Source: Chitiniphilus purpureus (GTDB lineage: Bacteria; Pseudomonadota; Gammaproteobacteria; Burkholderiales; Chitinibacteraceae). From it: a DNA stretch of 64,000 nt. Under the pieces are notes generated by a model. That model was not told where the DNA came from and did no database searches. It saw only the letters and a list, made by a program, of their open reading frames with translations. The translations under genes were made by a program, and so were the position numbers. Within the stretch, counting starts at the first letter, position 1, and every line of letters starts with the position of its first letter. The stretch covers positions 953,501 through 1,017,500 of the forward strand of contig NZ_CP106753.1 of assembly GCF_025642115.1 (NCBI RefSeq), given 5' to 3'. Below, in pieces: positions 22,035 through 26,436 of the stretch.

Positions 22035-22925
22035 TCAGCCGTCCGAAGCCTGTTTCCGCCGCTGCGCCACCTTCATCCGCACCAGCACCGCGTGCAGCAT
22101 CTCGGTCGACAGTCCATGCAGCACCAGCCGGTAGCCGGCGCGCAGCGTGCTCATCGGCACCAACGGGTGCTTGTTGTTCAGCAGGATCAGATGCTCGGGC
22201 TTGCCCAGCAACGTTGCCGCATACAGGCCGATGGTCTCGTCCAGCTGCAGTGAATTGGCGGCGCGCCAGAAATCGTTGTCGGTGAGGAACAGCTGGTAGA
22301 CCGGGGTGAAGCATTCGATCGCGGTCTGCAGGTCGACGAAGTTGAGCCGGCCATGCGGAAAGTCGGCGAGCGCGAGCGGCGGCTCTTCGATCATGCTGAA
22401 GTCGGGCTCGGCCACCGGCACGAGCTGCTGCTCGGCAAAGCGCAGGCCCTGACCCAGCCGGATCACGAAGTTGAACAGGTTGAGGTCATGTTTGACGAAG
22501 AGGTCGTCCTTCAGATCATCGAGCACCAAGGGCTTGAGCGGTGCGGTCTCCACCGGGACCGGGGCGTTCTTCGCGATGAATTCCAGGATCTGCGCGCCAA
22601 GGTGGAAGTGGCGCATCACCAGCCAGTTGGCCTCGGGCGAGACCAAGCGCTTGAGCCCCTCGGCCAGCAGCCAGTGCAACAGGCGCGAGGCGGCCCAGCG
22701 GCGCGGCAGGACGGCCTTGATCACCTGGATCAGCACGATGGTGGCGCGGGCCAGCGGGCGGATGAAGGGCAGCAGGAACTGACGCGAGGCGCAGCTGGAA
22801 TCGGCCAGCCAGGCCTGCTTCACGTGATCCGGCAGCGGCGTGCTCTGGTCAAGGTAAAGCGCAAGCCATGGGTTGGGGTCGCGCGGGTCGTGTTCGCGGG
22901 CGAGGAAGTCGGGCAGGCGCTTCAT
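22035..22925 (-). CDS. Uncharacterised helical protein (DUF6999-like), last gene of the lipid operon
   Basis: A 296-residue protein that I recognise only tentatively as a DUF6999-type family. It is predicted to be mostly alpha-helical, with one amphipathic or hydrophobic stretch near residues 52-80 (FLLPFIRPLARATIVLIQVI), no signal peptide and no catalytic motif I can name. Conserved-looking histidines and acidic residues (MRHFHLGAQILEFIAK, KHDLNLFNF) could bind metal or lipid, which is speculation. The start codon overlaps the stop of the ketosynthase-oxidase gene (ATGA), which argues for a dedicated role in the same pathway. Confidence 0.8.
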   Translation of the reverse strand: MKRLPDFLAREHDPRDPNPWLALYLDQSTPLPDHVKQAWLADSSCASRQFLLPFIRPLARATIVLIQVIKAVLPRRWAASRLLHWLLAEGLKRLVSPEANWLVMRHFHLGAQILEFIAKNAPVPVETAPLKPLVLDDLKDDLFVKHDLNLFNFVIRLGQGLRFAEQQLVPVAEPDFSMIEEPPLALADFPHGRLNFVDLQTAIECFTPVYQLFLTDNDFWRAANSLQLDETIGLYAATLLGKPEHLILLNNKHPLVPMSTLRAGYRLVLHGLSTEMLHAVLVRMKVAQRRKQASDG

Positions 22926-24811
22926 GCGGCGGACTCGATATGGTCGAACTGCATCAGGTAGAGCTGGGCGGTGCGGCGCGCGGTGGCAAGGATGGCGGCG
23001 GCGGCCTGCGGATCGACGGCGAGCACCAGCTCGACCGCGATCAGCCAGCGCGCGAGGTGATGCTCGTCGTTGGCGCCGTGGTATTCGAGGAAGCGGAACG
23101 CGGCGGGCGGCAGCGCCACCTGTTGACGCAGCAACGGCAGCAGCGCCGGCACGATGCGCTGGCCGGTGCCCTCGATGATGTAGATGGCGCCCAACAAACC
23201 GATCGGGTTCGGCGTGGCGGCCAGTGCGTGCAGGTAGGCGTTGAGCGCCTCGCCGCCTGGGTTGCGCCGCAGCGCCGCCAGCGGCTCGGTGCCGCCGGCG
23301 GCCTGGTAATCCTGGTAGAGGATCATGAAATCGTTCTGCTCGTCGCCGGCATGGGTTTCGATCAGCGCGGCCAGCGGTGCGTAGTCGCTGGTGAGCGAGC
23401 CCACCGCCTCGCGCATCCAGCGGCTGCCCTCGCGCACCTGCGGCACCCACTGCGCCGTCCAGTTGCGGTAGGCCGCCAGGTCAAAGCGCCCGGACACCAG
23501 CCTGTGGATCACCGGGCTGCGCCATACCTGGGAGCGGTAGTCCTGCCACAGGCTGGCCAGCTGCAACAGCAGCGGCTGCAACGGTTCCGGCGCGCCGGCC
23601 GGGTCGTGCGGCGCGGCGATGGCGCCTTCTGCCGGGGCGGGTGGGGTCACCGGCCGGTCCTCATGACGCGGCAACGAACGCGGCGCGTCGGCGGCTTCCA
23701 CCTCCAGCAGCACGTAGGCGGCGCTGATGCGGCCCGATTCCGGGATGAAGCACAGGATCTGTTCGCCCGGCCGGATGCTGCGGGTGTCGAGGAACTCGGC
23801 CAGCATCACGAAGATGGATGCCGCGCCGGTGTTGCCGCGGCTGGCAAGGTTGCTGTACCAGCGTTCCTTCGGGATGCTGAGCCCAGCCTTGTCGAGCAGG
23901 TCCTCGACCACCGGGATGAACTTGGCCGACGAGTAGTGGCACAGAAAGTGATCGATCCGCGCCGGCTGCACCCAGCCTGCCTCGACCAGCTTCACGTATT
24001 CGTGGATGGCCACATCAAACAGGTGCGGCAGCAGGCGGATGTCCTGCCGCAGCGACAGCGCCCCGGCCGCCTCGGCCTCGCTGCAGGACGGAAAGTCGAG
24101 GAAGGAGGTGCTGCGATCCTCGGTCAGCCCCAGCTGCATGCAGACCGGATAATCGCCGGCGAAGCTCTGCTGGTGGATCCACCTGAGCTTGAGCCGCACG
24201 CCGCCGCGCCCGCTCGGCGTATCGGTCAGCAGCACGGCGCCGGCGCCATCCGACAGCATCCAGCGCAGGAAGTGGGCATCGAAATCGCTGTCGTAGCCGC
24301 GCGGCGCGAAACGGCTCTTCTTGAACATGCGCGAGGGCATCTCGGCGGCCACGGTCAGCGCCTGGCGGTGCGCGCCCAGTTCGATCCCCTGCGCGGCGTG
24401 GGCCAGCGCGGTGATGCCGGCGGCGCAGATGCCCTGGCTGGAAAGCGTGCCCATCGGCGGCGCGCCGAGTTCGCCCTGGATCATGCCGGCAAAACCCGGC
24501 ATCAGCGCATCGCCGCCGCTGGAGCCCACCGCCAGCAGCGACACGTCCGCCAGCGTCGCCTGCGCGCGGTCGAGGCAATCGCGCACCGCGGCAGCGGCGA
24601 GCGCCGCGTGCGACATCGTGGTGCTGCCGTCCGGCGCGATCGCGTAGTGGCGGGTGGCAATGCCGTTCTCCGCCAGGATGCGGGCCTTGATCCGGCCGGA
24701 AATGCGGTTGAGCGGCGCGATATAGGCATCCATCTCGGCGTTGGCAATGGCCGGGCCGGGCAGGTGGTAGCCGGCGGCTTCGATGTAGACGCGGTCGAAC
24801 GCGGTAGGCAT
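22922..24811 (-). CDS. Fusion of beta-ketoacyl synthase III (FabH/OleA-like) and haem-oxygenase-like diiron oxidase
   Basis: A 629-residue two-domain enzyme. Residues 1-375 form a thiolase-fold KASIII with an intact triad: Cys129 (SSQGICAAGITA), His292 (FLCHYSSAK) and Asn327 (ASRGNTGAAS), so it should form C-C bonds between acyl-CoA/ACP units. A Pro/Ala linker (about 376-410) leads to a helical domain (411-629) resembling the haem-oxygenase-like diiron oxidases (TenA/UndA type). Its likely ligands are in LIETHAGDEQND (Glu485, His487, Glu491), YIIEGTG (Glu547) and YHGANDEHH (His578, Asp582, His585). Members of that group oxidatively cleave fatty or amino acids. It lies between desaturase/hydroxylase genes and a helical unknown with overlaps of a few bases. 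The product is unknown; a chain-elongated, oxidatively decarboxylated lipid is one inference. Confidence 0.85.
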   Translation of the reverse strand: MPTAFDRVYIEAAGYHLPGPAIANAEMDAYIAPLNRISGRIKARILAENGIATRHYAIAPDGSTTMSHAALAAAAVRDCLDRAQATLADVSLLAVGSSGGDALMPGFAGMIQGELGAPPMGTLSSQGICAAGITALAHAAQGIELGAHRQALTVAAEMPSRMFKKSRFAPRGYDSDFDAHFLRWMLSDGAGAVLLTDTPSGRGGVRLKLRWIHQQSFAGDYPVCMQLGLTEDRSTSFLDFPSCSEAEAAGALSLRQDIRLLPHLFDVAIHEYVKLVEAGWVQPARIDHFLCHYSSAKFIPVVEDLLDKAGLSIPKERWYSNLASRGNTGAASIFVMLAEFLDTRSIRPGEQILCFIPESGRISAAYVLLEVEAADAPRSLPRHEDRPVTPPAPAEGAIAAPHDPAGAPEPLQPLLLQLASLWQDYRSQVWRSPVIHRLVSGRFDLAAYRNWTAQWVPQVREGSRWMREAVGSLTSDYAPLAALIETHAGDEQNDFMILYQDYQAAGGTEPLAALRRNPGGEALNAYLHALAATPNPIGLLGAIYIIEGTGQRIVPALLPLLRQQVALPPAAFRFLEYHGANDEHHLARWLIAVELVLAVDPQAAAAILATARRTAQLYLMQFDHIESAA

Positions 24812-24812
24812 G

Positions 24813-25667
24813 TCAGGTTTCCTCGTGGCGCATCAAGGAGCGGCTGCGCCAGCGCGGCACCACGACGCTGGCGATGAAGGTGCGGAACATGTAGGGCACG
24901 AGCGGCCCGGCGTTGAGCGCCGGATGCAGCCGTGCGCGATAGCTGCGGTGCAGCGCGGGCAGTTCGGACCAATGCACCCGCGGATGCTCGTGGTGGGCCG
25001 TATGCAGGCCGATGTTGAACAGCAGCGGGTTGACCCAGCCCTCGAAGTTGCGCGCGTAGTCGAGCCTGGAGCGGCCATCGGCGTGCGCGTGCTGCAGATA
25101 GTTGGTTGCCAGCAGCCAGTGCAGGCCATGCAATTGCGGGATCAGCACCAGCAGCAGCCACTGCCGCCAGTCCAGCCAGGCAAGGCCCGCCCACAGCGCC
25201 GTCACCAGCGCGTACTGCAGCAGGCAGTAGCGCCAGGCGCCCGGGTGGTGCCGCCGCAGTCGGGAAAGCCAGCCAAGGAACAGCGGATACAGCACCCATA
25301 CCGCCTGGAACGGGTGGGCAAGGTAGCCCCACAGGTGGTTGCTGTCGCCGCCGAAGCGATAGGTGCGCGCCACGTCGCGCGGGCCATGCCGGTAGCGGTG
25401 ATGGTTGGCGACGTGGGCCGGGTAGAACACGAAGGTCGGGTGGCCCTGCAGCAGCGTCAGCCACAGGTCGGTCAGCCGGTTCAGGCGCCGGCCTCGCCAC
25501 ATCCGTCGGTGCGTATGGTGGTGATGGATCACGCCGATGCCCAGCGTGAGGAACAGCGTGACGGCGTAGGCGAACGGATGCCAGCCGTACCGCCACTGCC
25601 ACGCCACCAGCACCGGCAGCGCGACGAGGTAGGCGACGGCCTGCCAGTCGCGCCGGTTATGCAGCAT
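24813..25667 (-). CDS. Membrane fatty-acid desaturase-type protein
   Basis: A 284-residue integral-membrane diiron enzyme of the fatty acid desaturase superfamily, with histidine boxes HHHHTH (48-53), HVANHH (85-90) and HTAHHEHPRVHW (222-233), plus QHAHADG near 192. At least four hydrophobic segments flank the boxes. It should use O2 and electrons to introduce a double bond or hydroxyl into an acyl chain. The ATG at 25667 is preferred, overlapping the preceding gene by 11 bases; an in-frame ATG at 25718 would overlap by 62. One base separates its stop from the ketosynthase-oxidase start. Confidence 0.88.
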   Translation of the reverse strand: MLHNRRDWQAVAYLVALPVLVAWQWRYGWHPFAYAVTLFLTLGIGVIHHHHTHRRMWRGRRLNRLTDLWLTLLQGHPTFVFYPAHVANHHRYRHGPRDVARTYRFGGDSNHLWGYLAHPFQAVWVLYPLFLGWLSRLRRHHPGAWRYCLLQYALVTALWAGLAWLDWRQWLLLVLIPQLHGLHWLLATNYLQHAHADGRSRLDYARNFEGWVNPLLFNIGLHTAHHEHPRVHWSELPALHRSYRARLHPALNAGPLVPYMFRTFIASVVVPRWRSRSLMRHEET

Positions 25668-26436
25668 CGCGGCCCTGCTGCTGCTGGCGCCAGGCGGCGA
25701 TGCGGGCGGCGGCGGCATCCGGCGGCAGCGCGGTGCCGCACAGCCGGTCCATGAACGGGAGCATGAAGCCGTAGTTGCCGGTGAAACAGGCGTGATGCAG
25801 GTGGTGGCGCCGTGCGCCGTTCAACCACCAGCGGTCGTGGTGCGCATCGGGCAGGAAGTCGTAGTTGGAGTGGCCGATGCTGTTGAACAGCAGGCTGAAC
25901 AGCGGCACCGATGCGAGGGCCCACACCGAGAAATCGTGGAGCAGCATCGGCAGCAGGATCACATTGCCCAGCATCAATGCCTCGACCGGATGAAAGCTGT
26001 AGGTTGCCCATGGCGTCACCACCACCGAGCGATGGTGCGGCGTGTGGAAGCGCCGCAGCCAGCGCGTGTGCAGCAGCCAGTGGTTGAGATAGAAGTGCAC
26101 CTCGTTCCACACCACCAGCACGGCGATCTCGACCGCGGTGCGCCACCATGGCGGATCGACGGCGAGCCGCGCCCAGCCCAGCTGCAGCAATCCCCACGGG
26201 AACACCATGCCGCAGCCGAACAGCAGGATGGATGAGGTCGATTGCATCAACTCCCGGCGCATCTGCCCCGGTGGTACCGGGCGCGGATCGAGTGTGCCGC
26301 CATGGCCGATGGCGGGCAGCAGGTGGCGGCTCAGCAGTGTGTTGACCAGGCCGAAGGCGACATAGATGCCGCCGAAGAAGGCGCAGCCGGCCAGCATGAT
26401 TTGCCACCAGGGGGCGGCCAGGATGAATTCGCGCAT
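25657..26436 (-). CDS. Sterol-desaturase/fatty-acid-hydroxylase family membrane protein
   Basis: A 259-residue membrane diiron protein, first gene of the lipid operon. It has the family histidine pattern HFYLNHWLLH (His114, 119, 123), HTPHH (131-135), a central GHSNYDF and a C-terminal HHLHH (211-215), with three to four membrane segments. Family members hydroxylate or desaturate lipids (carotenoid, sphingolipid, fatty-acid hydroxylases). Start at 26436 gives an N-terminus of normal length; no strong ribosome-binding site is seen. It is divergent from the DUF805 gene across a 199-base AT-richer intergenic region that must hold the operon promoter. Confidence 0.87.
   Translation of the reverse strand: MREFILAAPWWQIMLAGCAFFGGIYVAFGLVNTLLSRHLLPAIGHGGTLDPRPVPPGQMRRELMQSTSSILLFGCGMVFPWGLLQLGWARLAVDPPWWRTAVEIAVLVVWNEVHFYLNHWLLHTRWLRRFHTPHHRSVVVTPWATYSFHPVEALMLGNVILLPMLLHDFSVWALASVPLFSLLFNSIGHSNYDFLPDAHHDRWWLNGARRHHLHHACFTGNYGFMLPFMDRLCGTALPPDAAAARIAAWRQQQQGRDAA

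Follow-up and report, generated by a model that had tools for sequence, protein, structure and literature searches.

A conserved ketosynthase, diiron oxidase and DUF6999 gene set in Chitiniphilus purpureus with a possible role in the synthesis of a ring-headed lipid

Here we describe a compact group of four genes in Chitiniphilus purpureus, found in a window of 64,000 nucleotides (the whole stretch of DNA that was analysed; contig NZ_CP106753.1, a single contig of 4.19 Mb, positions 953,501 to 1,017,500, with genes numbered from its first letter). All four genes, which we call A to D, are read from the minus strand, and the third codes for a fusion of a ketosynthase (KS) with a heme-oxygenase-like diiron oxidase (HDO):

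26436-25657, minus strand: gene A, 259 amino acids, membrane fatty acid hydroxylase family (PF04116; Pfam FA_hydroxylase 81.9 bits, cut-off 31)
25667-24813, minus strand: gene B, 284 amino acids, membrane fatty acid desaturase family (PF00487; Pfam FA_desaturase 95.2 bits, cut-off 29.7)
24811-22922, minus strand: gene C, 629 amino acids, a StlD/DarB-like ketosynthase (residues ~1-371) fused to an HDO domain (residues ~418-621)
22925-22035, minus strand: gene D, 296 amino acids, DUF6999 (PF22523; 426.1 bits, cut-off 27)

Both halves of gene C scored above the curated Pfam cut-offs (ACP_syn_III_C 36.0 bits; Haem_oxygenas_2, PF14518, 47.7 bits, cut-off 28.9). Genes A and B overlap by 11 bases, a single base separates B from C, and C and D overlap in the letters ATGA. 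These coordinates and junctions agree with the original prediction for this DNA, which had described four tightly packed genes. The same prediction would have been refuted had the genes not co-occurred in other genomes, but they do. Among the best 80 of 214 relatives of gene C in genome contigs, A, C and D were present in this order at all 80 loci and B at 79, so that the grouping is not a matter of chance; 79 of these 80 relatives have all four genes, gene D being cut by a contig end in L023 (21 residues visible) and L041. The co-occurrence supports the proposal of a short, dedicated, oxidative and acyl-directed pathway. The sole locus where B was not found belongs to Mesopusillimonas (L100:7182-8001), and there A adjoins C. 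The hosts include Chitinimonas, Andreprevotia, Collimonas, Cellvibrio, Azoarcus, Variovorax, Bordetella and Achromobacter, the nearest named relatives being Jeongeupia, Chitinimonas and Andreprevotia, which is in line with a host of the Chitinibacteraceae. The operon is accessory: within the family, 12 of the 37 genomes carry it, and the two sister genomes of the genus lack it.

Spacing was measured by script in loci L001-L014 and L021-L100, which include some genomes twice. The gap between B and C lay between -17 and 35 bases in 92 loci, and that between C and D was at most 22 bases in 81 of 93. It is enlarged to 245-478 bases in Iodobacter-type loci (for example L036:9870-10291), with no likely gene inside: the enlarged gaps of 12 loci, some from the same genome twice, held no coding-strand open reading frame (ORF) longer than 43 amino acids, and antisense ORFs, judged by eye, of 108 amino acids at most. 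We have also compared the ORFs of 17 representative loci with 94 loci, again partly the same genomes twice, and no extra neighbour recurred: among ORFs that do not overlap the four genes, none was matched at over 12 of the 94 loci. In L092 one ORF reached 24, but it overlaps gene A. No fatty acyl-AMP ligase (FAAL), acyl carrier protein (ACP), thioesterase or transporter recurred beside the four genes in this comparison, which accords with what had been noted for this operon. The hallmarks of polyyne and aryl-polyene clusters (FAAL, ACP, thioesterase and several KS genes) were not found at these loci.

Is the four-gene operon the oldest form of the system? The DUF6999 family has 3775 homologues at E <= 0.001. 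A search of the phylum covered 398 genomes (9 with a match); we also searched 147 genomes of the order of G281, a genome whose DUF6999 matches are mostly Sphingomonas-like (2 matches, one of them new), and 240 genomes of its class (6, five new). Together these gave 15 distinct genomes. A DarB-like KS and an HDO gene or domain adjoin DUF6999 in all 15. The two are fused in 7 of these and are separate genes in the other 8 (L122, L123 and L134-L139), where the two separate HDO genes scored against Haem_oxygenas_2 gave 33.7 and 41.2 bits. Genes A and B adjoin six of the seven fused sets. By tblastn neither was found beside the eight separate sets in the stretch searched (only 5.8 kb for L135); gene B had no match anywhere in these eight genomes, and gene A had only matches of at most 36% identity, away from the set, in five of them. 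Because A and B accompany the fused type only, while the three-part set adjoins in 15 of 15 genomes, we conclude that the deeper unit is KS, HDO and DUF6999, to which A and B were added in the fused lineage. The predicted grouping of four genes thus stands as a set that co-occurs, but it is not the deepest unit. At L124:11461-12302 (minus strand) gene A was not found and gene B matched in two different frames, with the KS-HDO fusion and DUF6999 open, and the core may function there without A and B. Further neighbours were noted at two of the separate sets. In G281 a fused MFS/acyltransferase/AMP-binding protein is encoded about 21 bases after DUF6999 (L122:5697-9098, minus strand), and divergent to the KS gene lies an ORF that resembles, by eye, a TetR-type regulator. 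In G421 a hydrophobic ORF of 188 amino acids ends directly before the KS gene (L123:12441-13007, minus strand), near ORFs resembling hisC, hisD and hisG; it has several histidines and no Pfam match, and it might be a stand-in for gene A.

The KS half of gene C points to a particular family of ring-forming enzymes. Its best match in the PDB, both by sequence (E 4e-59) and by fold (E 4.5e-25), was 5gk0, the structure of StlD from the stilbene biosynthesis of Photorhabdus, an enzyme whose partner aromatase is StlC. The identity is 35% over the KS half, StlD fills fold ranks 1-6 (the fold search used an AlphaFold2 model with a mean pLDDT of 76.3, from a 45-row alignment that includes the query twice), and the next family by sequence, PqsD, follows at 2.9e-10. 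Cys129, His292 and Asn327 were invariant in 32 ketosynthases, those of our system and canonical DarB-type ones taken together. In an unrooted tree of these 32, a branch with support of 100/99 divides 25 system rows from 7 canonical ones. As judged from the sequences, then, the ketosynthases of the system are a separate group which, without a usable outgroup, may be read either as a sister clade of DarB or as the stem from which DarB arose. StlD itself is a single-domain enzyme and, in the account of PMC5515871, its substrate is a phenyl-pentadienoyl unit.

In the HDO half, His487, Glu491, Glu547, His578, Asp582 and His585 were invariant in 25 fused and separate domains, and position 461 carries an acidic residue (E or D) in nine aligned rows. 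Among solved structures only 3dde, a heme-oxygenase-fold protein of unknown function, is a clear sequence relative (E 4.6e-14); in the alignment its six corresponding positions hold identical residues. The pattern resembles the diiron site of CADD, which is built from three histidines and three carboxylates (PMC11965152). Since six residues are invariant, correspond to this CADD-like arrangement and are kept in 3dde, the HDO domain is likely to be active, the ligands being proposed from residue conservation rather than geometry. With the HDO superfamily, which includes CADD, UndA, SznF and BesC, gene C shares the PF14518 match and the histidine and carboxylate pattern; it differs in having 3dde as its only clear solved relative and in the KS fusion, seen in one lineage. 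The histidine boxes of the two membrane enzymes are HFYLNH (114), HTPHH (131) and HHLHH (211) in gene A, and HHHHTH (48), HVANHH (85) and HTAHH (222) in gene B. Gene D had been described as a helical unknown, and its AlphaFold2 model (mean pLDDT 86.7) is indeed all-helical; Foldseek found no fold match in the PDB at E <= 0.001. The protein may be an enzyme or a scaffold. Of 14 control genomes, only that of Caulobacter vibrioides encodes DUF6999.

In the dialkylresorcinol pathway (flexirubin, arcuflavin, 2-hexyl-5-propylresorcinol) DarB works together with DarA; in Azoarcus BH72, for instance, darB and darA form a pair, and darA is called the dialkylresorcinol aromatase (PMC3949708). We asked whether DarA accompanies our system as well, using as a probe the gene upstream of DarB in L116. 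The 398-genome sample contains 20 genomes with 21 DarB-like KS genes (E <= 1e-40). Nine of these genes adjoin DUF6999 and the other 12 directly adjoin the presumed DarA homologue; none has both neighbours and none has neither. Homologues of the probe thus adjoin canonical DarB in 12 of 12 loci, whereas the genome of the window and 14 of the 15 system genomes gave no match. The same was true of 26 of the 28 genomes searched in a second sample of 29 named system loci (L092 was left out). The probe finds homologues down to 39% identity, and these absences are therefore not the result of insensitivity to canonical DarA.

We propose, tentatively and with confidence a little short of even, that the operon is self-contained and makes a ring-headed, oxidised dialkyl lipid by a variant of the dialkylcyclohexanedione/resorcinol pathway, with HDO and DUF6999 taking over the work of DarA. 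The protein families, the conserved catalytic-type residues, the gene set and the mutual exclusion with a DarA-like gene are read from the sequences; all substrates, all products and the order of the steps are what we infer. DarB is reported to make 4-carboxy-2,5-dialkylcyclohexane-1,3-diones, and StlD a related dione (PMC5515871). By analogy, the DarB-like half of C would condense a 3-oxoacyl thioester with a second, 2-enoyl, acyl thioester, both drawn from fatty acid metabolism, and would close a 2,5-dialkylcyclohexane-1,3-dione ring, possibly with the 4-carboxylate retained. The fused HDO domain would then oxidise the ring with O2, by dehydrogenation or oxidative decarboxylation to a resorcinol and perhaps by ring hydroxylation, and so replace the aromatase DarA. 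DUF6999 would perform or support one more step that this intermediate must undergo, and in the lineage of C. purpureus hydroxylase A and desaturase B would tailor the alkyl chains, either before the ring is closed or afterwards. Given that DarA is absent and an O2-type diiron domain is fused or adjacent to the KS, the simplest model is that the KS forms the ring and HDO oxidises it, with the obligatory DUF6999 step and the tailoring by A and B. What the system would have in common with DarA-DarB is the related ring-forming KS with its invariant Cys-His-Asn and the expected condensation of two fatty acid units. It differs in that HDO and DUF6999 are present where most genomes lack a DarA homologue, in the position of its KS across the 100/99 branch and below the family score cut-off, in the two added membrane oxidases, and in having no aryl-polyene genes nearby.

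Several observations weigh against this proposal. The ketosynthases of the system fall under the cut-off of 450 bits of the StlD/DarB model NCBIfam PRK06816: gene C scored 319.5 bits and five separate system ketosynthases 322-398, compared with 562-593 for five canonical controls, and the reaction may therefore differ. HDO enzymes, as presented in PMC11965152, catalyse very diverse chemistry. The DarA probe was named by its position beside DarB only; it matched no NCBIfam model, nor any Pfam family above the cut-off. A DarA homologue does occur in three system genomes: in G432 it adjoins a second, canonical DarB, and the other two, with a single homologue apiece, are those of L035 (Parazoarcus) and L082 (Variovorax gossypii). 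Lastly, the operon has no ACP, thioesterase or exporter.

Could the HDO domain act before the KS rather than after it? It might oxidise the acyl chain, to an enoyl unit or to a shortened, UndA-like alkene-bearing one, and pass it on to the KS, so that any ring stays a cyclohexanedione. UndA, a fatty acid decarboxylase, is among the HDO enzymes in the works cited by PMC11965152, and the fusion in 7 of 15 genomes suits channelling, although in either direction. If the product is aromatic, however, the lack of DarA in 14 of 15 and 26 of 28 genomes calls for a replacement enzyme, and we regard this order of events as unlikely. It is quite improbable, in our judgement, that the product is a quinone-type redox lipid, for which HDO, DUF6999 or both would hydroxylate an aromatised ring to a hydroquinone or quinone while A and B modify the tails. 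Such a product would parallel the plant alkylresorcinol quinones, of which sorgoleone is one, and it would explain several O2-type enzymes beside one ring-forming enzyme as well as the joint presence of HDO and DUF6999 in 15 of 15 genomes; against it, the operon contains no methyltransferase or transporter.

The original prediction had suggested another chemistry: an acyl chain would be modified and condensed, here taken as an OleA-like head-to-head reaction, and the product would be cleaved oxidatively or decarboxylated to give an alkene, ketone or aldehyde. The OleA olefin and PpyS pyrone ketosynthases have the FabH-like fold and use two acyl substrates, OleA shares the fold of gene C, and some HDO enzymes are decarboxylases, as the works cited by PMC11965152 show. 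The best OleA entry, 5vxf, is far weaker by sequence than StlD (E 4.1e-4 against 4e-59), and the catalytic glutamate lies 26 and 24 residues before the active cysteine in OleA (Glu117/Cys143) and PpyS (Glu105/Cys129), offsets which, by residue counting and not by superposition, fall on L103 and P105 before Cys129 in gene C, neither of them a glutamate. The nearest relatives of the KS, StlD and DarB, make carbocyclic dialkylcyclohexanediones, and we therefore do not favour this chemistry and consider it very improbable.

Our proposal of a DarA-independent ring pathway also bears on how such clusters have been labelled. In our literature search no paper was found that names DUF6999, describes the gene set or characterises the pathway. 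The lipid had been called apparently undescribed, and this holds only in part, as 'resorcinol' regions are on record in two of the host genera. For Achromobacter mucicolens a 'resorcinol' region whose core gene is DarB is reported, and that description gives no product (PMC9045304). The A. mucicolens strain of L065, which differs from the reported one, has the operon and no DarA homologue, and for this reason the label probably points to the KS-HDO-DUF6999 operon. For Variovorax, PMC10946135 reports a 'resorcinol' cluster that resembles no known cluster and a separate arylpolyene-resorcinol hybrid, likewise with no product stated in its description of them; one of the two may be the operon.

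What would these findings mean? The set of KS, HDO and DUF6999 would set apart from the DarAB pathway some of the clusters that probably bear the 'resorcinol' label. One may go further and suppose that it is an independent and widespread proteobacterial route to a new class of cyclic redox lipids, such as a lipid quinone or a polyhydroxylated ring, with DUF6999 as an enzyme of a new fold that works on the ring, DarAB as a mere cousin, and the 'resorcinol' label of mining tools wrong in this case; we think this broader view quite improbable. DUF6999 gains its first functional context, as part of a concrete, named set of three genes. If HDO indeed replaces DarA, then the chemistry of HDO enzymes would gain ring aromatisation or the oxidative decarboxylation of a cyclohexanedione. 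Perhaps the role of DUF6999 can be approached in Caulobacter vibrioides, a model organism which encodes this protein and in which a knockout may be feasible if the KS and HDO genes are present too.

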